Assembly (NCBI RefSeq): GCF_029581195.1
Contig: NZ_CP120737.1
Coordinates: 62,001 to 126,000 of the forward strand
From: Solwaraspora sp. WMMD791
Lineage (GTDB): Bacteria > Actinomycetota > Actinomycetes > Mycobacteriales > Micromonosporaceae
DNA length: 64,000 nucleotides
Direction: 5' to 3'
The position numbers and the translations under genes were made by a program. The notes under the pieces were generated by a model. It did no database searches, was not told where the DNA came from, and was given only the letters and a program-made list of their open reading frames with translations. Positions 18,288-28,310 of the stretch are shown here, one piece after another (positions within the stretch are counted from its first letter, which is position 1; every line of letters begins with the position of its first letter).

Positions 18288-18794
18288 CGGTTGCTCCTCA
18301 CCCTGGTAGCCGGTTGTGGTGCGCTGGCGAACTGCGTCGATGTCGTGGCGTCGGGCCATCGAGGTACCCGGTGGATGCGCGTGGGCTCGGCAACGGCTGG
18401 CGGTCGTGGCCTCGACTGCCGGTGGGCCTGGGTGGAGTCGGGCGTCCCGGCACCGGCGGAGGCGCGGTGGTCCGGGCGCAGCCACGGTGGTCCCAGCGGG
18501 GGCGGGTGGTCCCGGTGATGGCGCTGCCCGCTCGGTGCCGTCCGCCGCCCTGTTGCAGCTCCCGCGTCTGCCGTTGCTCAGCGCGGTTGCCCCCGTGCTG
18601 CGGCGATATGAGCTATTTCAGCATGCACCGGCTTACCCTGCAACATCGATGATTGTCGACATCCGACAAGTTTGGTGCATGCTGTCGACAGTCGACGGTC
18701 ATGCCCCTGGTGACGTCGTGTGGGCTGAGCGGTGTGTCAGCCGTCGGGCGTTGCTACATTGATGAGTGTCGCTCAATCTGAGAGGTGTGTGCCC
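18288..18794. promoter_or_regulatory. 507-bp divergent intergenic region with nested repeats
   Basis: It separates the membrane-protein gene from the sugar dehydrogenase gene. A perfect 9-bp inverted repeat, GCATGCACC (18621-18629) and GGTGCATGC (18674-18682), encloses one copy of the palindrome TGTCGACA (18654-18661); a second copy follows at 18683-18690, 29 bp on. The AT-richer part around 18600-18700 is a likely regulatory region. No gene is supported here. Confidence 0.55.
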
Positions 18795-20336
18795 ATGAAG
18801 CTCAGATCCGTGGTCGGTGCCGTTCTCGCCGCAGCACTGGCGGCGACCGGGCTCGCCGCAGTGGCGACGGCCGCCACCGTCCCCGCCGCCGACCGGGCCA
18901 CCGGCCTGCTCGCCCTCGGCGACTTCGACTTCTCCCGGCCCGAGGTGGTCGCGACCGGCCTGACGGTGCCCTGGGGGATGGACTTCCTGCCGGACGGCAG
19001 TGCGTTGGTCGCCCAACGCAGCACCGGCCAGGTCGTGCGGGTCCGGCCCGGCATGCAGCCGCAGCCGGTCGTGACGATCTCCGGCATCACACCGGTCAGC
19101 GAGGGCGGACTGCTCGGTCTCGCGGTCTCGCCGACCTTCGCCCAGGACGACTACGTCTACGTCTACTTCACCACGGCCACCGACAACCGGATCGCCAGGT
19201 TCCGGCTCAGCGCGCCGCAGAACCAGCAGCCGATCCTGACCGGGCTCGTCCGGGCGAGCATCCACAACGGTGGCCGCATCGCGTTCGGCCCGGACGGAAT
19301 GCTCTACGCCGGGGTGGGCGACGCCGGTCAGACGGCCTCCGCGCAGAACCCGCAGAGCCGCAACGGCAAGATCCTGCGGATGCGTCCCGACGGGACGGTC
19401 CCGGCGGACAATCCGACGCCGGGCTCGCTGGTCTACAGCCTGGGGCACCGTCACGTACAGGGACTCGCGTGGGACGCCCAGGGCCGGCTGTACGCCACCG
19501 AGTTCGGACAGAACACCTGGGACGAGGTGAACCTGATCGTCGCGGGCGGCAACTACGGCTGGCCGACCGTCGAGGGCAGGGCCGACGATCCCCGGTTCCG
19601 GGACCCGCTGCTGGTCTGGACCCCGGCCGAGGCGTCGCCCAGCGGTGCCGCGATCGCCGGGAACCGGCTGTACGTGGCCGCGCTGCGCGGAAACCGGCTG
19701 TGGAACGTACCGCTCGACGGAGCCGGTGGGGTCGGCACCCCGACTGCGGAACTGATCGGCGCCTACGGTCGGCTGCGCACCGTCGAGTACGGTCCGGACG
19801 GCTGGCTCTGGGTGACGACCAGCAACCGGGACGGCCGGGGGACGCCGGCGGCCACCGACGACCGGATCCTGCGGTTCCCGCCCGTCGACGCCCCACCGAC
19901 CACCGCGCCACCGACGACCGCGCCACCGACGACCGCGCCGCCGACCACCGCGCCACCGACCACCGCGCCACCGACGACCGCGCCGCCCACGACCGCACCA
20001 CCGACCACCGCGCCGCCGGTCGGCGCGTGCAGCGTGTCCTGGCAGGTCAACCAGTGGAGCAACGGCTTCACCGCCGACGTGCGCGTCACCAACCGGGGCG
20101 CGTCGGTCAGCGGCTGGACGCTGACCTGGACCTTCCCCGGCAACCAGCAGATCACCAACGGGTGGAACGCCCAGATCGGCCAGTCGGGTCAGCAGGTGAC
20201 GGCGCGCAACGCCGCGTGGAACGGCAACCTGCCGGCCAACGGTACGGTGAGCTTCGGTTTCCAGGCGACGTACAGCGGAAGCAACCCGCGTCCGTCGGAC
20301 TTCCAACTCAACGGCGCCCCCTGTCAGGTGGTCTGA
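18795..20336 (+). CDS. secreted PQQ-type sugar dehydrogenase with C-terminal CBM2
   Basis: A 513-residue exported protein. The ATG at 18795 has GAGGTG upstream; the signal peptide ends ATA-AT (about 27). Residues about 45-365 are a six-bladed propeller of the glucose/sorbosone dehydrogenase family (VPWGMDFLPDGS, GGLLGLAVSPTF, NGGRIAFGPDGMLY, GHRHVQGLAWD, ATEFGQNTWDEVN), the group that uses PQQ or related cofactors to oxidise aldose sugars. Eight PPTTA repeats form the linker (about 367-406), then CBM2 runs to the C-terminus. Binding to polysaccharide while oxidising released sugars would place an electron source beside the LPMOs. Whether it uses PQQ cannot be shown from sequence alone. Confidence 0.9.
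   Translation: MKLRSVVGAVLAAALAATGLAAVATAATVPAADRATGLLALGDFDFSRPEVVATGLTVPWGMDFLPDGSALVAQRSTGQVVRVRPGMQPQPVVTISGITPVSEGGLLGLAVSPTFAQDDYVYVYFTTATDNRIARFRLSAPQNQQPILTGLVRASIHNGGRIAFGPDGMLYAGVGDAGQTASAQNPQSRNGKILRMRPDGTVPADNPTPGSLVYSLGHRHVQGLAWDAQGRLYATEFGQNTWDEVNLIVAGGNYGWPTVEGRADDPRFRDPLLVWTPAEASPSGAAIAGNRLYVAALRGNRLWNVPLDGAGGVGTPTAELIGAYGRLRTVEYGPDGWLWVTTSNRDGRGTPAATDDRILRFPPVDAPPTTAPPTTAPPTTAPPTTAPPTTAPPTTAPPTTAPPTTAPPVGACSVSWQVNQWSNGFTADVRVTNRGASVSGWTLTWTFPGNQQITNGWNAQIGQSGQQVTARNAAWNGNLPANGTVSFGFQATYSGSNPRPSDFQLNGAPCQVV
19893..20012. repeat. eight 15-bp units encoding the PPTTA linker
   Basis: Eight consecutive copies of a CCACCGACCACCGCG-like unit with wobble-position changes encode (PPTTA)8 between the propeller and CBM2. 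A typical slippage-prone linker repeat; a related PPPTTAPPTT linker occurs in the second LPMO gene. Confidence 0.95.
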
Positions 20337-22006: not shown

Positions 22007-22714
22007 TCACTCGGCCACGGACAGGTCGATGGTGTGCGCCGCGTGGTTGGCCTTCGCCGCCAGGTACCGCACGTTCGCCGCCGACACGTGCACGCCGGTC
22101 GGGATCTGTTCGCTGACGGTGACCCCGAGCTGGGTGAGTTGTGCCGCCTTGTCGGGGTTGTTGCTCAGCAGCGCGACCCGTCGGACGCCGAGCGCGATCA
22201 ACATCTGCGCGGCGACCGTGTAGTCCCGCTCGTCCTCGCCCCGGCCCAGCGCCACGTTGGCCTCGAACGTGTCCAGCCCGGCGTCCTGCAGCGCGTAGGC
22301 GTCCAGCTTCGCGTACAGCCCGATGCCGCGCCCCTCCTGACGCAGGTAGAGCAGGAAACCACCACTGGTGGCGATCCGTTCCACCGCCTCGCGCAGCTGC
22401 GGACCGCAGTCGCACCGCTGACTGCCGAAGGCGTCACCGGTCAGGCACTCGCTGTGCGGGCGTACCAGGGGCGGTTCGCCACCGTCGTCGGCCCGGTCCA
22501 GCACCTGGCGCCAGTCGCCCAGCCCGAGCGCGACGTGCTCGCGCCGGTCGGCCAACCCGTCGAAGGTGAACACCCGGGCCTTGGTGGTGTAGCCGTCGGC
22601 GAACCGCAGCGGCACCGTGACCTGCCGACGGACCGCAGCGGTCGACGGTACGGCGACCGTCGGGCCGGCGGTGAGCTTACCGTTGACAGGTGCGTGGGGC
22701 GGCGGTTCAAGCAT
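22007..22714 (-). CDS. ribA: GTP cyclohydrolase II (stand-alone)
   Basis: A 235-residue enzyme that opens GTP to a ribosylated diaminopyrimidinone phosphate, formate and pyrophosphate. The zinc cysteines are Cys90, Cys101 and Cys103 in HSECLTGDAFGSQRCDCG; the GTP-binding RQEGRGIGLYAKL begins at Arg125, with the catalytic-site Tyr123 kept. There is no fused DHBP synthase (RibB) domain, and no lumazine or riboflavin synthase gene nearby, so this is unlikely to be the housekeeping riboflavin copy. GAGGAAG precedes the ATG at 22714. It is convergent with the GH43 gene and divergent from the RibD-C-like reductase gene, 136 bp away. Streptomyces are known to carry several such paralogues with altered chemistry. 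Confidence 0.9.
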   Translation of the reverse strand: MLEPPPHAPVNGKLTAGPTVAVPSTAAVRRQVTVPLRFADGYTTKARVFTFDGLADRREHVALGLGDWRQVLDRADDGGEPPLVRPHSECLTGDAFGSQRCDCGPQLREAVERIATSGGFLLYLRQEGRGIGLYAKLDAYALQDAGLDTFEANVALGRGEDERDYTVAAQMLIALGVRRVALLSNNPDKAAQLTQLGVTVSEQIPTGVHVSAANVRYLAAKANHAAHTIDLSVAE

Positions 22715-22850
22715 CGGTACTTCCTCTTCGGTGACGGGGCTGCGGCGACGTCGACATCGGCATGGCCGAGGTCGGCGCGTGGGCGGTACGGAAGAATGTG
22801 TGCCGGCCTCACCTGCAGGCTATCTGTCGATCGACGCGGAGGAGCCATCA

Positions 22851-23543
22851 GTGGTTGAGCGACCCTACGTCCTGCTCAGCTGCGGCATGTCGATCGACGG
22901 GTACCTGGACGACGCCGCCGGCGAGCGGCTGCTGCTGTCCAACGACGCCGACTTCGACCGGGTCGACGCGGTGCGGGCCGACTGTGACGCGATCCTGGTC
23001 GGGGCGGGCACGATCCGTCAGGACGACCCGAGGCTGCTGGTCCGCTCGGCGGACCGGCGCCGCCGGCGGCAGGCCCGGGGGCAGCGGCCCACCCCGCTGA
23101 AGGTCACCGTCACCGGACGCGGCGACCTGGACCCCGAATCGCGGTTCTTCACCCACGGGGACGTGGACAAGCTGGTGTACTGCGCGACCGGCCATCTCGA
23201 CCGTGCCCGGCGACGGCTGTCCGCCGTCGCCACGGTCGTCGACTGCGGCGACCCGGTCGACCTGGTCCGGGTCGTCGGCGACCTGCACGAGCGCGGCGTC
23301 GGGCGGCTGATGGTCGAGGGCGGCGGCCGGATCCACACCCAGTTCCTCACCGCCGGGCTGGTCGACGAACTGCACCTGGTGGTCGCCCCGATCTTCGTCG
23401 GCGACTCGCGGGCACCCCGGTTCGTCGGTGACGGCCGGTTCCCGTGGCACGCCGACTCCCGGGCCACCCTGGCCGAGGTACGTCAGATCGGCGACGTGGC
23501 GCTGCTGCGCTACGCGATGTCGCCCCGGTTCGGCGACCGGTAG
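22851..23543 (+). CDS. RibD C-terminal-domain reductase (diaminopyrimidinone reductase-like)
   Basis: A 230-residue DHFR-fold protein of the RibD-C/RIB7 family, which uses NAD(P)H to reduce the ribosyl group of the pyrimidine made by GTP cyclohydrolase II to ribityl. Visible motifs are SCGMSIDGYLDD (about 10-21), ADCDAILVGAGTIRQDDP, RLMVEGGGRIHTQFL and LVDELHLVVAPIFVG. GTG 22851 is chosen because GGAGGAG stands just upstream. There is no deaminase domain, as in fungal and archaeal enzymes that reduce before deamination. Its place beside ribA supports a joint two-step route from GTP. Confidence 0.88.
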   Translation: MVERPYVLLSCGMSIDGYLDDAAGERLLLSNDADFDRVDAVRADCDAILVGAGTIRQDDPRLLVRSADRRRRRQARGQRPTPLKVTVTGRGDLDPESRFFTHGDVDKLVYCATGHLDRARRRLSAVATVVDCGDPVDLVRVVGDLHERGVGRLMVEGGGRIHTQFLTAGLVDELHLVVAPIFVGDSRAPRFVGDGRFPWHADSRATLAEVRQIGDVALLRYAMSPRFGDR

Positions 23544-23578
23544 CCGGCGCACCGCCGCCGCCACCGTCGCCGGTCGCG

Positions 23579-24613
23579 TCACGTCGCAGGCTGCGGTCGC
23601 AGCCGTACCCGCAGCCGTCCGACCGGGACCTTGCGCAGCCCGCGCAGGGTCAGCACGGCGGCCCCCGGCAGGCTCGCGGTCAGCGCCAGCAGACCGTAGA
23701 CGACGGCGACCGTCAGCCCCAGCTCCGCGCCGAGCCCGGCCGCGCCGAACGCCCAGGCGGTCGCCCCTTCGCGCGGTCCCCAGCCGCCGACGTTGAGCGG
23801 CACCGCCATCGCGAGAAAGGCCAGCACCATCAATGGCAGCAGCAGGTGCAGCGGCGCGGTCGCCCCGGCGGCCCGGGCGGCGACCAGGAAGGTGGCGAGG
23901 TGACCGGCGAGCGCCACCACGGACAGCAGCAGCACGCCCGGCCAGGTCCGTCGGGCCAGCAGCCCGCCGCGCAGATCGGCGGCGGTACGCCGAAGGGCCC
24001 GCCGCCACCAGCCGACCGACGTCGGCTCGTCCGCCGGCTTCAGCTGGCCTGCCGGTGCGGCCCGTGCCGCCCGTACGGATCGCGTGGTCGCCCGCCGCCG
24101 CAGCACCGCGCCCACGCCGAGCGTGACCGCGACCAGCGCCACCGTGGCCACCGTGAGCTGGGCGGCGGTGACCACACCTGCCGGCACCGGCACCGGCAGG
24201 GTCAGCAGGACACCCGCGGCGACCGCGAACAGCACGACCTGACCGGCGGTGCGCTCCAGCACCACCGCTCGGACCCCGCCACCGACGTCGGAGACCGTAC
24301 GGCCGTGCCGGACCGCGCGGTGCACGTCACCGAGCACCCCGCCGGGCAGCGCCGCGTTGAGGAAGATCGCCCGGTAGTAGTCGGCGACGGCGGTGCGTAC
24401 CGGCAGCCGTAGCCCCATGCCCCGGGCGACCAGACACCAGCGGGCCGCGCTGCAGACCGTACTGAGCAGGCCGATCCCGACGGCGAGCAGCAGCGTCTGG
24501 GCCTCGATCACCCGTACCCCGTCGAGGAAGGCCCCGGTGCCGAGCCGCCAGACCAGTACGGCCAGGATCGCGATTCCGCCGACCAGCCGCAGCCAGGGCC
24601 AGATCCTGCCCAT
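23579..24613 (-). CDS. UPF0104 / LPG-synthase-TM-like integral membrane protein
   Basis: A 344-residue polytopic membrane protein of the group annotated as lysylphosphatidylglycerol synthase transmembrane region (AglD/UPF0104), without any aminoacyl-transfer domain. About eight hydrophobic segments are visible, with conserved-looking FLNAALPGGVLGD-V, ERTAG and VPLNVGGWGPREG. Members are thought to move or present lipid-linked molecules. ATG 24613 overlaps the TGA of an 18-codon leader frame (TGATG) and has no Shine-Dalgarno of its own, so translation is probably coupled. The position after methyltransferase and glycosyltransferase genes suggests export or membrane handling of their product. 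Confidence 0.82.
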   Translation of the reverse strand: MGRIWPWLRLVGGIAILAVLVWRLGTGAFLDGVRVIEAQTLLLAVGIGLLSTVCSAARWCLVARGMGLRLPVRTAVADYYRAIFLNAALPGGVLGDVHRAVRHGRTVSDVGGGVRAVVLERTAGQVVLFAVAAGVLLTLPVPVPAGVVTAAQLTVATVALVAVTLGVGAVLRRRATTRSVRAARAAPAGQLKPADEPTSVGWWRRALRRTAADLRGGLLARRTWPGVLLLSVVALAGHLATFLVAARAAGATAPLHLLLPLMVLAFLAMAVPLNVGGWGPREGATAWAFGAAGLGAELGLTVAVVYGLLALTASLPGAAVLTLRGLRKVPVGRLRVRLRPQPAT

Positions 24614-24669
24614 CACGCCGCGCCACGGCCGATGCCGGCCGTACGCCACGGGCTGATCGCCCTGTGCAT
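24613..24669 (-). CDS. 18-codon leader ORF coupled to the membrane protein gene
   Basis: ATG 24669 follows a strong GAGGAGG with 6-base spacing and encodes MHRAISPWRTAGIGRGAA, ending at a TGA that overlaps the ATG of the membrane protein gene. The ribosome-binding site clearly belongs to this frame. It may only deliver ribosomes to the main gene, or it may be the remnant of a frame-shifted N-terminus. Confidence 0.45.
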   Translation of the reverse strand: MHRAISPWRTAGIGRGAA

Positions 24670-24725
24670 GCCTGTCCTCCTCGGTGAGCCTCCGATGTCA
24701 GATACGCGGCGACGACGCCTGCGGT

Positions 24726-25553
24726 TCACCTCGGCACCACCAGTAGGTCACGGTGCTCGACGGTGACCTGCAGCTCGCCGGCGGTAGCGGCGGCGAGCCG
24801 GCGCTGCCGGTAGCCGCCGGGCCGGCCGGCCAGTTCCGGCTGCTGCTCGTACGCCGCCGCGATCCAGCCGTCGAGCCAGCGGGAGGTCAGCTCCGCCTGC
24901 TCGGGGCCGAGCCGCCAGGGACTGGGCCGCACCAGCACGCTCGCCCCGCGCCGGGTGAACGCCTCGGTGGCGGCCTCCACGGCGTCCGGGCCCAGCAGTG
25001 GCCGGCCGGCGCTGTGCCGACGCTGGTGGTCGTTGAACGCGGCGGACAGCGCGTCGTCGAGCGGGTCGGCCGGGTGCATCCGTACCTCGCCGACCACCGT
25101 CAGGGTCAGCAGCGCCGGGCAGCCCACCGCCAGGATGGTCGCCGCCAGGGTGTCGACCTCGTCGCGGGTGAGCAGGTCCAGCAGCGCGGAGGCGGTGACC
25201 AGCCCGGCGTCGGCGAGGTCGTCGGCGGTGAGCGCCGTGACGTCGTCGCGGCGGACCGTCGCGGTGACCGGTGCGCCGTCGGCAGCCGCCGGGGGCATCG
25301 CGGCCTCCGCGTACCGCAGCAGTTCGAGGTCGCGGTCGTGCAGCACCCAGTGCTGCTGCCCGGCCAGGCGCGGCGCCAGCCACCGGCCCATCGACCCGGT
25401 GCCGCAACCGAGGTCGTGCACCTCGGTCCGGGTGCCGCCGGCGAGCAGCCGGCCCAGTTCGGCGACCAGTTCGGTCGACCGGGCCTGCGCGTCCGCCGGT
25501 TCCCGCAGCCCCAGCCAGGCCGGGCTGTACCCGGACGACTCGATCGTCTCCAC
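24726..25553 (-). CDS. class I SAM-dependent methyltransferase
   Basis: A 275-residue methyltransferase. GTG 25553 has GGAGGGAG five bases upstream; longer frames run into Arg-rich non-protein-like sequence. The SAM-binding glycine motif is VHDLGCGTGSMGRWLAP (about 47-63), followed by an acidic loop HDRDLELL and an ADLADAGLVTASALLDLL motif IV region. A long C-terminal part ends LTSRWLDGWIAAAYEQQPE. The acceptor substrate is not evident. It lies downstream of the glycosyltransferase gene after a 116-bp gap, all in one leftward direction with the pterin-type genes. Confidence 0.85.
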   Translation of the reverse strand: METIESSGYSPAWLGLREPADAQARSTELVAELGRLLAGGTRTEVHDLGCGTGSMGRWLAPRLAGQQHWVLHDRDLELLRYAEAAMPPAAADGAPVTATVRRDDVTALTADDLADAGLVTASALLDLLTRDEVDTLAATILAVGCPALLTLTVVGEVRMHPADPLDDALSAAFNDHQRRHSAGRPLLGPDAVEAATEAFTRRGASVLVRPSPWRLGPEQAELTSRWLDGWIAAAYEQQPELAGRPGGYRQRRLAAATAGELQVTVEHRDLLVVPR

Positions 25554-25669
25554 ATGCGCTCCCTCCGCCGCTGACGCGGCGCCGTGACGTTGTGGCGCCG
25601 GATCCGTGCGTGCCGGATCCATGGCACCGGGTGTGGTGCGGCCCTGGTGCGGCCTCGGTGCGGCCGACG

Positions 25670-26737
25670 TCAGCGCCGCCGCAGGTCGTGCAGCACCGCG
25701 CCGATCCCGGCGGCGGTCCGCGCCCAGTTGGGCAGCGTCGCCCGCCGCCGCACCGCCGCCGCCCGCAGCCGCTTCCGCCAGTCGGCGTCGGTCAGCCAAC
25801 GACGCACCGCCGCGCCGAGTGTCGCCGGGTCGCCCGGTGGCACCAGCAGCCCGGGCAGGCTGCCGTCGCTGTCCTGGCCGAGGGCCTGCGGCACCCCACC
25901 CACCTCGCTGGCCAGCACCGGGATGCCCCGGGCCAGTGCCTCGGTGACCACCATGCCGTACGTTTCGGCGTACGAGGCGAGGATCAACAGATCGGCGTCG
26001 GCGTAGCTGCGGGCCTGCGCGGCACCGTGGCGGGGGCCGGTGAGCGTGACCCGGTCGCCGAGGCCGTGGCGGGCGATCCGGTCGCGGACCCGCTCGACGT
26101 GCCCGGCGGCGTCCAACGCCCCCACACACCGGCAGTTCCAGTCCAGGTCGGCGACGGTGGCCAGTGCGTCGACCAGCACGTCGTGGCCTTTGCGTGGGGT
26201 GACCGATGCGACGCAGAGCAGCCGGCGGCCGGCCGGATCCGCAGCGGTCAGGTCAGCGGGCGCGACGCCGGGCACCGCCACCCGGACCCGGTGCGCGGGC
26301 AGTCCGTGCCGCTCGGCCAACTGCCGCGCGGTCCAGTCACTGGTGGCGATGACGGCCGACGCGGCGCCGAGCACGGCGCGTTCGGCCCGGTCCAGGTCGG
26401 CGGCGTCGGCGGGGTCCAGCCCGGTCTCGTCGGCCAACGGCAGGTGCACCAGCACCGCCAGCCGCAGTCGGTCGGCGTGCGGCGTGACCACCTCGGGCAC
26501 CCCGCAGGCGACCAGCCCGTCGAGCATTACCACCGTCGCGTCCGGCAGCCCGGCGAGCGTCTCGCCCAGCGCGGCCCGGGCCGTCGCGTCCGGGCGCGGC
26601 CACCGACCGGGCAGCGCCACCTCGCGGACCGGCCAGCCGGCGGCGACCAGCTCGGCGCAGACCTGCCGGTCGTAGACGTTGCCACCGCTGGGCGTCGCCG
26701 GATCGTCCACGTTGCCGGGCAGGAGCACGACGACCAT
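25670..26737 (-). CDS. GT4-type glycosyltransferase
   Basis: A 355-residue GT-B glycosyltransferase. ATG 26737 opens MVVVLLPGNVDDPATPSGG, the N-terminal nucleotide-fold glycine loop. The C-terminal half has the retaining-GT4 set LLCVASVTPRKGHDVL, ADLLILASYAETYGMVVTEALARGIPVLAS (E-x7-E) and a final LPGLLVPPGD. The start lies 5 bp after the stop of the pterin-synthase-like gene, so the two are co-transcribed. In this setting it may glycosylate a pterin- or pyrimidine-derived product; that is inference. Known GT4 enzymes use UDP- or GDP-sugars. Confidence 0.88.
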   Translation of the reverse strand: MVVVLLPGNVDDPATPSGGNVYDRQVCAELVAAGWPVREVALPGRWPRPDATARAALGETLAGLPDATVVMLDGLVACGVPEVVTPHADRLRLAVLVHLPLADETGLDPADAADLDRAERAVLGAASAVIATSDWTARQLAERHGLPAHRVRVAVPGVAPADLTAADPAGRRLLCVASVTPRKGHDVLVDALATVADLDWNCRCVGALDAAGHVERVRDRIARHGLGDRVTLTGPRHGAAQARSYADADLLILASYAETYGMVVTEALARGIPVLASEVGGVPQALGQDSDGSLPGLLVPPGDPATLGAAVRRWLTDADWRKRLRAAAVRRRATLPNWARTAAGIGAVLHDLRRR

Positions 26738-26742
26738 CCGGG

Positions 26743-27141
26743 TCAGAGCGCCCGCTCGTAGCTCGCCCACGCGACGTGCGACTCGTGCAGCGTGACGCTG
26801 ATCCCGGCCAGGCCGTGGGCCCCGGCGCCGAGGTCACCGGCGTGTACCCGGTCGGCCAGTCGGTCGGCGATCAGCTTGGCCAGCCACTCGGTGGAGGTGT
26901 TGACCCCCGCGAACGCGGGTTCGTCGTCGAGGTTGCGGTAGTTCAACTCTGCCAGTACGGCCTTGAGCTGCTCGGTGGCCAGGCCGATGTCGACGACGAT
27001 GTTGTCGCTGTCGAGGTCGGTGCGCTTGAACGTCGCGTCGACGACGAAGGTGGCCCCGTGCAGTCGTTGCGCCGGCCCGAACACGTCACCGGTGAAACTG
27101 TGGGCGACCATGATGTGGTCACGGACGGTGACGCTGAACAT
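26743..27141 (-). CDS. 6-pyruvoyl-tetrahydropterin synthase / QueD homologue lacking key residues
   Basis: A 132-residue T-fold protein. The PTPS/QueD pattern is clear: an AHSF motif (His14) at the start, LHGA at 27-30, [13 protein letters not shown] and [12 protein letters not shown] near the end. Two residues usual for the family are replaced. The catalytic cysteine four residues before the first histidine of HGH is Ala24, and the second zinc histidine of HGH is Ala30. Classical chemistry on dihydroneopterin triphosphate is therefore doubtful. GGAGG, inside the end of the dehydrogenase gene, precedes ATG 27141. Co-location with GTP cyclohydrolase II suggests a related substrate. Confidence 0.85.
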
Positions 27142-27144
27142 TTC

Positions 27145-28128
27145 TCATCCTCCAGTCGGGTAACGGATCACATGGCACGACGCCGGTAGCTCGCCGGCCG
27201 CGAGCCGGGACAGCACCCGCGGCAGGTCGGCGAAGTCGCTCTCGCCGGTCAGCAGGGCGTCGAACCGGTCGTCGGCGAGCAGGTCCAGGGCGACGGCGAG
27301 CCGGCCGGCGTACCCGCGCCGGTCGCGGCGCGCCGGCGACACCAGGCCGACCTGGCTGCTACGGACGGTCAACCGGCGGGAGTGGAAGTGCTCGCCGAGC
27401 GGTACGGTGATCGGGCGGTCGCCGTACCAGCTGAGGTCGACCACCGTGCCCTCGACGGCGAGCAACTCCAGCGACCGGGCCAGCCCGGCAGCCGTGGCGC
27501 TGGCGTGCAGCACCAGGTCGCAGTCGCCGGTGGCGGTGTCGGGGTGGGCGAACCCGACGCCGAGCGCGGCGGCGACCCGCGCCCGGTCGGGGTCGACGTC
27601 GACCAGTTCGACCCGGACGCCGGGGAATCCGGCGGCGAGCGCGGCGACCGTCGCACCGACCATCCCGGCGCCGACCACGGCGATCCGGTCGCCGAGCAGG
27701 GGAGCGGCGTCCCACAGCGCGTTGACTGCGGTCTCCACCGTGCCGGCGAGCACGGCGCGGCGGGCCGGCACGGTCTCCGGCACCACGGTGACCGCGTCGG
27801 CCGGCACCACGTAGCGGGTCTGGTGCGGGTAGAGACAGAAGACGGTACGCCCGACGAGCGTGGCCGGGCCCTGCTCGACCCGTCCGACGTTCAGGTAGCC
27901 GTACTTGACCGGGGCGGGAAAGTCGCCCTCCTGGTACGGGGCGCGCATCACCGCGTACTGGCTGGGTGGCACCTCGCCGCGGAAGACCAGCGTCTCGGTG
28001 CCCCGGCTCAACCCGCTGAACAGGGTGCGGACCAGCACCTCACCGGGGCCGGGCGGGCCGACCTCGACCGGTCTGATCTCCCCGTCGCCGGGCGCGCGCA
28101 GCCAGAACGCGTGGTCGCGCGGTGTCAT
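27145..28128 (-). CDS. MDR-family (zinc-type alcohol dehydrogenase-like) oxidoreductase
   Basis: A 327-residue medium-chain dehydrogenase, first gene of the leftward part of the cluster. An N-terminal GroES-like domain (VLVRTLFSGLSRGTETLVF, then GYLNVGRVEQGP) is followed by a Rossmann domain with VVGAGMVGATVAALAA (about 156-171) and an acidic LVDVDPDR after strand 2, suggesting NAD over NADP. The classical catalytic cysteine of zinc alcohol dehydrogenases is replaced by serine/glycine-rich sequence. The pattern is close to the group related to BchC. ATG 28128 follows GAAGGGACG. The substrate is unknown. Confidence 0.83.
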   Translation of the reverse strand: MTPRDHAFWLRAPGDGEIRPVEVGPPGPGEVLVRTLFSGLSRGTETLVFRGEVPPSQYAVMRAPYQEGDFPAPVKYGYLNVGRVEQGPATLVGRTVFCLYPHQTRYVVPADAVTVVPETVPARRAVLAGTVETAVNALWDAAPLLGDRIAVVGAGMVGATVAALAAGFPGVRVELVDVDPDRARVAAALGVGFAHPDTATGDCDLVLHASATAAGLARSLELLAVEGTVVDLSWYGDRPITVPLGEHFHSRRLTVRSSQVGLVSPARRDRRGYAGRLAVALDLLADDRFDALLTGESDFADLPRVLSRLAAGELPASCHVIRYPTGG

Positions 28129-28310
28129 CGGCGTCCCTTCGTCGTCCCGGCCGGCCTCGGTAACCATACGCAGGACACGCAGGGTGACGAATGGTGATCG
28201 ATCAGCGCGTCCGTCCGCCCGGTCGTGCGTCGTGGCCTTGACGGACGGCACGCGGCAGACGACCATCGGGAATTAAAGTGATTCTGATCAATGTAACGGG
28301 GGTAATTCAA

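Follow-up and report, generated by a model that had tools for sequence, protein, structure and literature searches.

What does an actinobacterium make from guanosine triphosphate (GTP) with seven adjacent genes that belong neither to its riboflavin operon nor to its deazapurine genes? The question is raised by a locus at positions 22007–28128 of a 64,000-nucleotide stretch of Solwaraspora sp. WMMD791 (hereafter the window; C1:62001–126000 of the 6.93 Mb single-contig genome), which encodes a stand-alone GTP cyclohydrolase II (RibA), a RibD-C reductase, a UPF0104 membrane protein, a class I S-adenosylmethionine (SAM) methyltransferase, a GT4 glycosyltransferase, a PTPS-like protein and an MDR dehydrogenase. 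We propose that the product of the locus may well be a glycosylated, methylated 2-amino-pyrimidine or pterin that is derived from GTP and attached to a lipid.

All seven families named in the initial annotation of this DNA were found in place by Pfam and by reading of open reading frames (ORFs). The genes are adjacent, as described there. One point needs amending: the RibD-C gene is read from the other strand, running towards the membrane gene and away from RibA. The genes for MDR, PTPS-like protein, GT4, methyltransferase and UPF0104 form one tight minus-strand run, with gaps of 3, 5, 116 and 76 bases. Chance is ruled out as the origin of the set, because it recurs in other genomes.

The proposed opening of GTP and its separation from housekeeping routes

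The RibA gene (22007–22714, minus strand; alternative start 22615 possible; GTP_cyclohydro2 PF00925, 9e-55) is one of two GTP cyclohydrolase II genes in the genome. The other is part of a complete riboflavin operon near C1:1.506 Mb, encoding RibD, riboflavin synthase (RibE), RibBA and lumazine synthase (RibH), and the window RibA is 50% identical to the GTP cyclohydrolase II part of that RibBA. The housekeeping operon is thus not missing from the genome, as it would be if the window gene were the housekeeping copy, and the locus is, as originally claimed, not the riboflavin operon. Neither a deaminase nor 3,4-dihydroxy-2-butanone 4-phosphate (DHBP) synthase, lumazine synthase or riboflavin synthase was found by Pfam and ORF reading among the genes of the locus run. 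A preQ0-like set is also separate, at C1:39.7–42.3 kb, about 42 kb from the locus, with GTP cyclohydrolase I and QueD assigned by Pfam and QueC-like and QueE-like ORFs read by eye. The PTPS-like protein of the window scored 36 bits against the QueD model, which has a cut-off of 89. A deazapurine route, excluded from the start by the genes of the locus, was rejected, the genome having its own preQ0-like set; an alternative folate route was likewise rejected, because both this genome (in two copies) and 14/14 relatives tested encode GTP cyclohydrolase I. With the riboflavin operon and the preQ0-like set both separate, the locus is therefore a separate pathway.

In an alignment with the E. coli cyclohydrolase II, Tyr140 of the window RibA falls at the position of Tyr105, and we take a tyrosine at this position to mark a cyclohydrolase II that makes the diamino product. 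Among 76 cluster-type RibA sequences, the residue is Met in 50, His in 11 and Tyr in 14, with one sequence unalignable at this site. A creatininase-family gene is present in the same locus for all 61 of the Met/His sequences, and RibD-C for 14 of them but not for the other 47; for the Tyr sequences, the creatininase gene is present in 0/14 and RibD-C in 14/14. One of the Tyr sequences (L052) comes from an ordinary riboflavin/QueD-type locus, leaving 13 Tyr clusters, the window included. In Streptomyces cluster RibA proteins, the Met is residue 120 in three of the four inspected; in the fourth, which starts further upstream, it is residue 124. SCO6655 of S. coelicolor, studied by Spoonamore et al. 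in 2006, is reported to stop at the formyl compound owing to Met120. The pairing of residue and creatininase is chemically sensible, and fits a formamidase of the BrbF type.

The creatininase gene of the relatives belongs to PF02633, and its nearest model is MftE (139 bits, below the cut-off of 172). In Sinorhizobium, formate is removed from the formyl compound by BrbF, a formamidase of the creatininase family (PMC9478397). From family membership and the residue pairing, the creatininase of the relatives is a likely formamidase for the same compound.

The RibD-C gene (22851–23543, plus strand; RibD_C PF01872, 8e-43) encodes a reductase on which Pfam finds no deaminase domain, in agreement with the initial description. 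Its best solved relatives are 5xux and 6p8c, and its best model is the archaeal TIGR01508, which describes a reductase acting before deamination (141 bits, below the cut-off of 186). This best score, though under the cut-off, strengthens the original outline in which GTP is opened and the ribose then reduced.

Core proteins and their conservation

The PTPS-like protein (26743–27141, minus strand) had been called a PTPS/QueD homologue. It does belong to that fold family (PTPS PF01242, 4e-23), but without the residues on which the PTPS/QueD chemistry described so far depends. We compared 97 cluster proteins with the genome's own QueD-type protein. The catalytic Cys is absent from 97/97, a separate motif survey showing Ala at this position, and the catalytic His of the Asp-His pair is replaced in 97/97, by Tyr in 95. 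The third zinc-binding His is Ala in all 86 actinomycete sequences that cover the site, the window included, and His in 10/10 sequences of a more distant family (f18, below). Two Glu are kept in all 97, one of which is presumably the ring anchor. The family thus has the fold and the ring-binding Glu of PTPS proteins, and lacks the catalytic Cys and the Asp-His pair; in the actinomycete sequences, the set of three zinc His is incomplete as well. The closest solved structure to the family profile is PDB 3d7j, deposited as "Uncharacterized protein SCO6650" (3e-55). By this match, SCO6650 of Streptomyces coelicolor is the orthologue of the window protein. A report of 2008 reportedly described SCO6650 as lacking zinc and PTPS activity and as having a pterin-like pocket.

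The MDR dehydrogenase (27145–28128, minus strand; upstream starts at 28167 or 28266 possible) matched library models weakly, with Pfam ADH_zinc_N at 6e-4 and NCBIfam BchC at 2e-13, both below cut-offs. However, a search with the profile of its family recovers solved MDR dehydrogenases, the strongest match at 9.5e-27, the nearest being threonine, butanediol, xylitol and sorbitol dehydrogenases, and SxGTE, PHQ, ETA, SWY and SQVG motifs are conserved in the alignment. These relatives would fit a polyol chain as substrate. The remaining genes of the minus-strand run encode the GT4 glycosyltransferase (25670–26737; alternative start 26770 possible; Glycos_transf_1 PF00534, 7e-26), the class I SAM methyltransferase (24726–25553; Methyltransf_25 PF13649, 2e-6) and the flippase-like UPF0104/LPG_synthase_TM membrane protein (23579–24649; PF03706, 3e-29; TIGR00374 just under cut-off).

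In a search of 296 genomes of the phylum, the PTPS-like protein had matches in 71 at an expectation value (E) of 1e-3, most of them weak. For the eight strongest matches outside its own genome (2e-27 or better), GT4 adjoins the gene in all eight and MDR in seven, the eighth lying at a contig end. When the MDR alignment was run against named genomes, it gave at least 578 relatives, the best 80 of which are the named loci counted here; 65 of these have nearly full flanks (18 kb or more). MDR, PTPS-like protein and GT4 are side by side in 75 of the 80. The PTPS-like gene is present in 78 (65 of the 65 with full flanks), GT4 in 75 (62), the methyltransferase in 75 (63), the membrane gene in 73 (62), RibA in 66 (57), creatininase in 57 (48) and RibD-C in 27 (25). 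The loci span 16 named genera, among them Streptomyces (48 loci), Actinoplanes, Actinomadura, Amycolatopsis and Saccharothrix, as well as unclassified metagenome-assembled genomes (MAGs). Two MAGs labelled Thermoleophilia (L122 and L128) carry an MDR 70% identical to that of the window, by transfer or mis-binning. Many Streptomyces loci (L034, L037, L063, L072 and others) have a flavin adenine dinucleotide (FAD) amine-oxidase-like gene and two dehydrogenase-like genes after RibA. In Actinomadura and Amycolatopsis (L055, L065, L114), RibA or MDR has as a neighbour an inositol monophosphatase-like gene, read by eye, which could be the missing phosphatase.

In the distant family f18 of the same phylum, whose proteins are 29–40% identical to those of the window, MDR, PTPS-like protein, GT4, methyltransferase, RibD-C and FolB occur together in all ten loci read, and RibA in one of them. 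The window's methyltransferase gave no match to that of f18. GT4 and methyltransferase appear fused in three loci by ORF length, one of them confirmed by Pfam. A single cyclohydrolase II is encoded in 10/12 f18 genomes, and the housekeeping enzyme would therefore feed the branch there. FolB is divergent from RibD-C in 10/10 loci (L041–L050), with a PlsC-like acyltransferase next to it; because it is the only FolB found in 11/12 f18 genomes, it may be a mere neighbour of the cluster. Taken with the named loci, the f18 loci bear out the expectation that the gene families would co-occur across actinobacteria. Families, linkage, co-occurrence and residue pairing can all be read from the sequences themselves.

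Partner genes with a probable link to lipids

A gene for a cytidine diphosphate (CDP)-alcohol phosphotransferase accompanies 79 of the 80 named loci, the sole miss being a short locus. It is divergent from MDR in 75 of the 79 and in the same direction in four, and lies within 370 bases in 78 and at 6 kb in one. The motif DxxDGxxAR-x7/9-GxxxDxxxD is intact in 85/85 loci (PF01066, 4e-12). In the Solwaraspora genome itself, the gene is at C1:499 kb, unlinked to the locus.

Co-occurrence was examined in 296 genomes of the class, with E thresholds of 1e-20 for the PTPS-like protein, 1e-25 for the phosphotransferase and 1e-40 for a membrane protein with a sulfatase-type domain that resembles LtaS and EptA. 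The PTPS-like gene is found in 43 genomes, the phosphotransferase in 42 and both in 39; by genus, each is found in 21 of 115. The phosphotransferase is thus present in 39/43 genomes with the PTPS-like gene compared to 3/253 of the others (Fisher, 1.6e-40, with descent ignored). The two genes are within 12 kb of each other in 35 of the 39, and the four unlinked genomes are the present one and three in which the genes are on different contigs of unfinished assemblies.

The LtaS/EptA-like protein is encoded in 32 of these genomes, all of which have the phosphotransferase and 30 of which have the PTPS-like gene. In 16 of these 30, it is not close to the PTPS-like gene but far off or on another contig (six on the same contig); in the Solwaraspora genome it is at C1:3.096 Mb. 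It falls within the flanks of 14 of the 80 named loci. In 11/32 genomes, the LtaS/EptA-like protein and the phosphotransferase form one open frame. The long ORF of L120 contains both Pfam domains, the sulfatase one just below cut-off, and that of L122 only the first domain by Pfam. The predicted model of the LtaS/EptA-like protein is nearest to MCR-1, LtaP and LtaS, followed by sulfatases, at 11–14% identity in the best hits listed. Eleven whole proteins show all three motifs (Glu, Ser/Thr and Asp-His, whose roles in these partner proteins we presume), with two single-letter departures. The dedicated GTP-derived set described originally therefore stands, but as a part of the pathway, since the lipid partners are elsewhere in this genome and many relatives have a creatininase in addition.

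Proposed pathway, alternatives and known systems

In the pathway that we propose, which is conserved in actinobacteria, the locus would supply the half that works in the cytoplasm. RibA would open GTP to 2,5-diamino-6-ribosylamino-4(3H)-pyrimidinone 5'-phosphate; in many relatives, the Met/His cyclohydrolase would halt at the formyl compound, which the creatininase-type formamidase would deformylate. RibD-C would reduce the ribose to a ribityl chain and, because there is no deaminase, the 2-amino group would be retained. MDR might then oxidise a hydroxyl of the chain, while the PTPS-like protein would hold the 2-amino-4-oxo ring and assist in shaping or closing another one. GT4 would glycosylate and the methyltransferase methylate the product, the CDP-alcohol phosphotransferase would couple it to a lipid, the UPF0104 protein would carry the lipid-linked product across the membrane, and the LtaS/EptA-like enzyme would act on it outside. 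We infer all of these activities, as well as every substrate beyond the ribityl compound, the attachment to a lipid and the sequence in which the late steps occur. The first two steps are argued from family membership and residues, the lipid part from linkage and co-occurrence, and the ring chemistry purely from plausibility.

A more specific version is speculative, and we regard it as unlikely: the product would be a methylated, glycosylated pterin serving as the head group of a membrane lipid in filamentous actinobacteria, made by a new ring route (cyclohydrolase II, ribityl reduction, oxidation of the 2'-hydroxyl and closure by the 5-amino group to a dihydropterin) and deposited in aerial hyphae and spores, where it might shield the cell from light or act as an antioxidant. 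If true, the same type of ring as is made via GTP cyclohydrolase I would be reached by another route. By gene order, the S. coelicolor cluster is SCO6649–SCO6655, and SCO6652 is its methyltransferase. In one study, the log2 rise of SCO6652 over the first mycelium is 0.8 in the substrate, 4.3 in the aerial and 4.1 in the spore stage (PMC3610822), and another lists SCO6655 among genes mostly rising in stationary phase (PMC2853524). That the cluster acts in aerial hyphae or spores is a guess, if a reasonable one.

Several observations weigh against the lipid-linked reading. Near relatives dominate the 80 named loci, because these are the best-scoring of at least 578, and no RibD-C is found within about 9 kb in 40 of the 65 loci with full flanks, mostly from Streptomyces, the rest of those genomes lying outside that search. 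On a tree of 96 loci, the division into Tyr and non-Tyr RibA needs two changes only, and the pairing with creatininase does not amount to 75 independent cases; a test on independent pairs yields one to two pairs, which puts 0.05 out of reach. Descent, ignored in the Fisher value, also accounts in part for the 35/39 linked phosphotransferase genes. The PTPS-like gene occurs alone in four genomes and the phosphotransferase alone in three, and the f18 loci are without the phosphotransferase and without the LtaS/EptA-like gene. The model of the LtaS/EptA-like protein is of low confidence, with a predicted local distance difference test (pLDDT) score of 61.5 and template modelling (TM) scores of 0.26–0.35 to its best matches, and all three strict LtaS/EptA motifs occur in just 8 of 15 matched stretches.

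The f18 loci, with GT4 and methyltransferase and no lipid genes, would suit a soluble, exported pterin, glycosylated and methylated like cyanopterin or limipterin, with the phosphotransferase and the LtaS/EptA-like enzyme serving an adjacent but separate envelope pathway. GT4 and methyltransferase are core genes in both clades, and bacterial pteridine glycosyltransferases exist (PMC5683033). Against such a product stands the phosphotransferase at 79/80 named loci and in 39/43 genomes with the PTPS-like gene, including the present one, where it is unlinked, and we consider this reading rather unlikely.

Use of the cyclohydrolase II product for a diffusible secondary metabolite of the antibiotic kind appears improbable. 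The GTP branch serves such compounds, toxoflavin among them, and the locus has a methyltransferase as well as a membrane gene of exporter-like type; yet the set recurs with similar gene order in no fewer than 16 named genera, and it is found in two distant clades of the phylum, while beside the window's set we noticed neither resistance nor regulator genes. RibA and RibD-C, both riboflavin-type enzymes, and the FolB adjoining all ten f18 loci could suggest an additional source of flavin or folate, but this is very hard to reconcile with the complete riboflavin operon, with the GTP cyclohydrolase I found here and in all 14 relatives tested, and with the lack of deaminase, lumazine synthase and riboflavin synthase among the genes seen in the run. 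A ribitol-phosphate or teichoic acid route, considered for MDR and the LtaS-like partner, was dropped, as it offers no part for cyclohydrolase II and the formamidase to play. A defence system was rejected as well, with one weak generic methyltransferase match only (mad2, 9e-5). On both sides, the locus is flanked by genes for secreted-type proteins, with CBM2 and with GH43 and ricin-type domains, that have no evident link to it; one secreted-type protein in the window (18789–20336) has repeated Pro-Pro-Thr-Thr-Ala linker units ahead of its C-terminal part.

Two orthologues from S. coelicolor are in print; they were reportedly studied about two decades ago, with their purpose left open. To our knowledge, the set as a whole fits no known pathway. 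No publication on the whole cluster was found in the open-access literature, most subscription papers falling outside the search, and in the accessible text of a 2026 review of bacterial pterins the terms Streptomyces, actinobacter-, actinomyce- and lipid do not occur (PMC13259868). The comparison made here ties the two S. coelicolor proteins to the rest of the set, names a likely formamidase and points to lipids for the product. If the lipid-linked reading is right, a class of GTP-derived, lipid-bound molecule would be added in bacteria that yield many antibiotics.

The beginning of the proposed pathway resembles the archaeal start of riboflavin synthesis (GCHIII, ArfB and diaminopyrimidine reductase), in which opening, deformylation and reduction also precede deamination and whose reductase model is, below its cut-off, the best match to RibD-C; unlike there, the cyclohydrolase is of bacterial type II and no later flavin gene follows. 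The window cluster differs from that of SCO6655 in having a Tyr-type RibA and no creatininase. BrbF is of the same family as the creatininase of the relatives and deformylates the formyl compound near the riboflavin branch point (PMC9478397); however, it serves riboflavin, and the cluster gene is nearest to MftE. The partner enzyme shares its motifs and nearest model with the phospho-head-group transferases of the LtaS, LtaP and EptA type, but is 11–14% identical to the best hits listed, has a model of low confidence and also matches sulfatases. Toxoflavin and vicine, the latter a pyrimidine glucoside, are side products of the cyclohydrolase II branch, and their routes share this start with the locus; we know of no PTPS-like, MDR or lipid genes in them. 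Cyanopterin is also methylated, and routes of the cyanopterin and limipterin type start from GTP cyclohydrolase I. Pterin glycoside routes, such as that of the Chlorobium PGT (PMC5683033), combine a pterin-type binding protein with a glycosyltransferase as the locus does, but the locus has cyclohydrolase II and a reductase, and lipid genes accompany it. Set beside these systems, the individual enzymes all belong to known kinds. New in this comparison are the pairing of Met/His cyclohydrolase with creatininase, the phosphotransferase and LtaS/EptA-like partners, and the absence of the catalytic triad from the PTPS-like protein.

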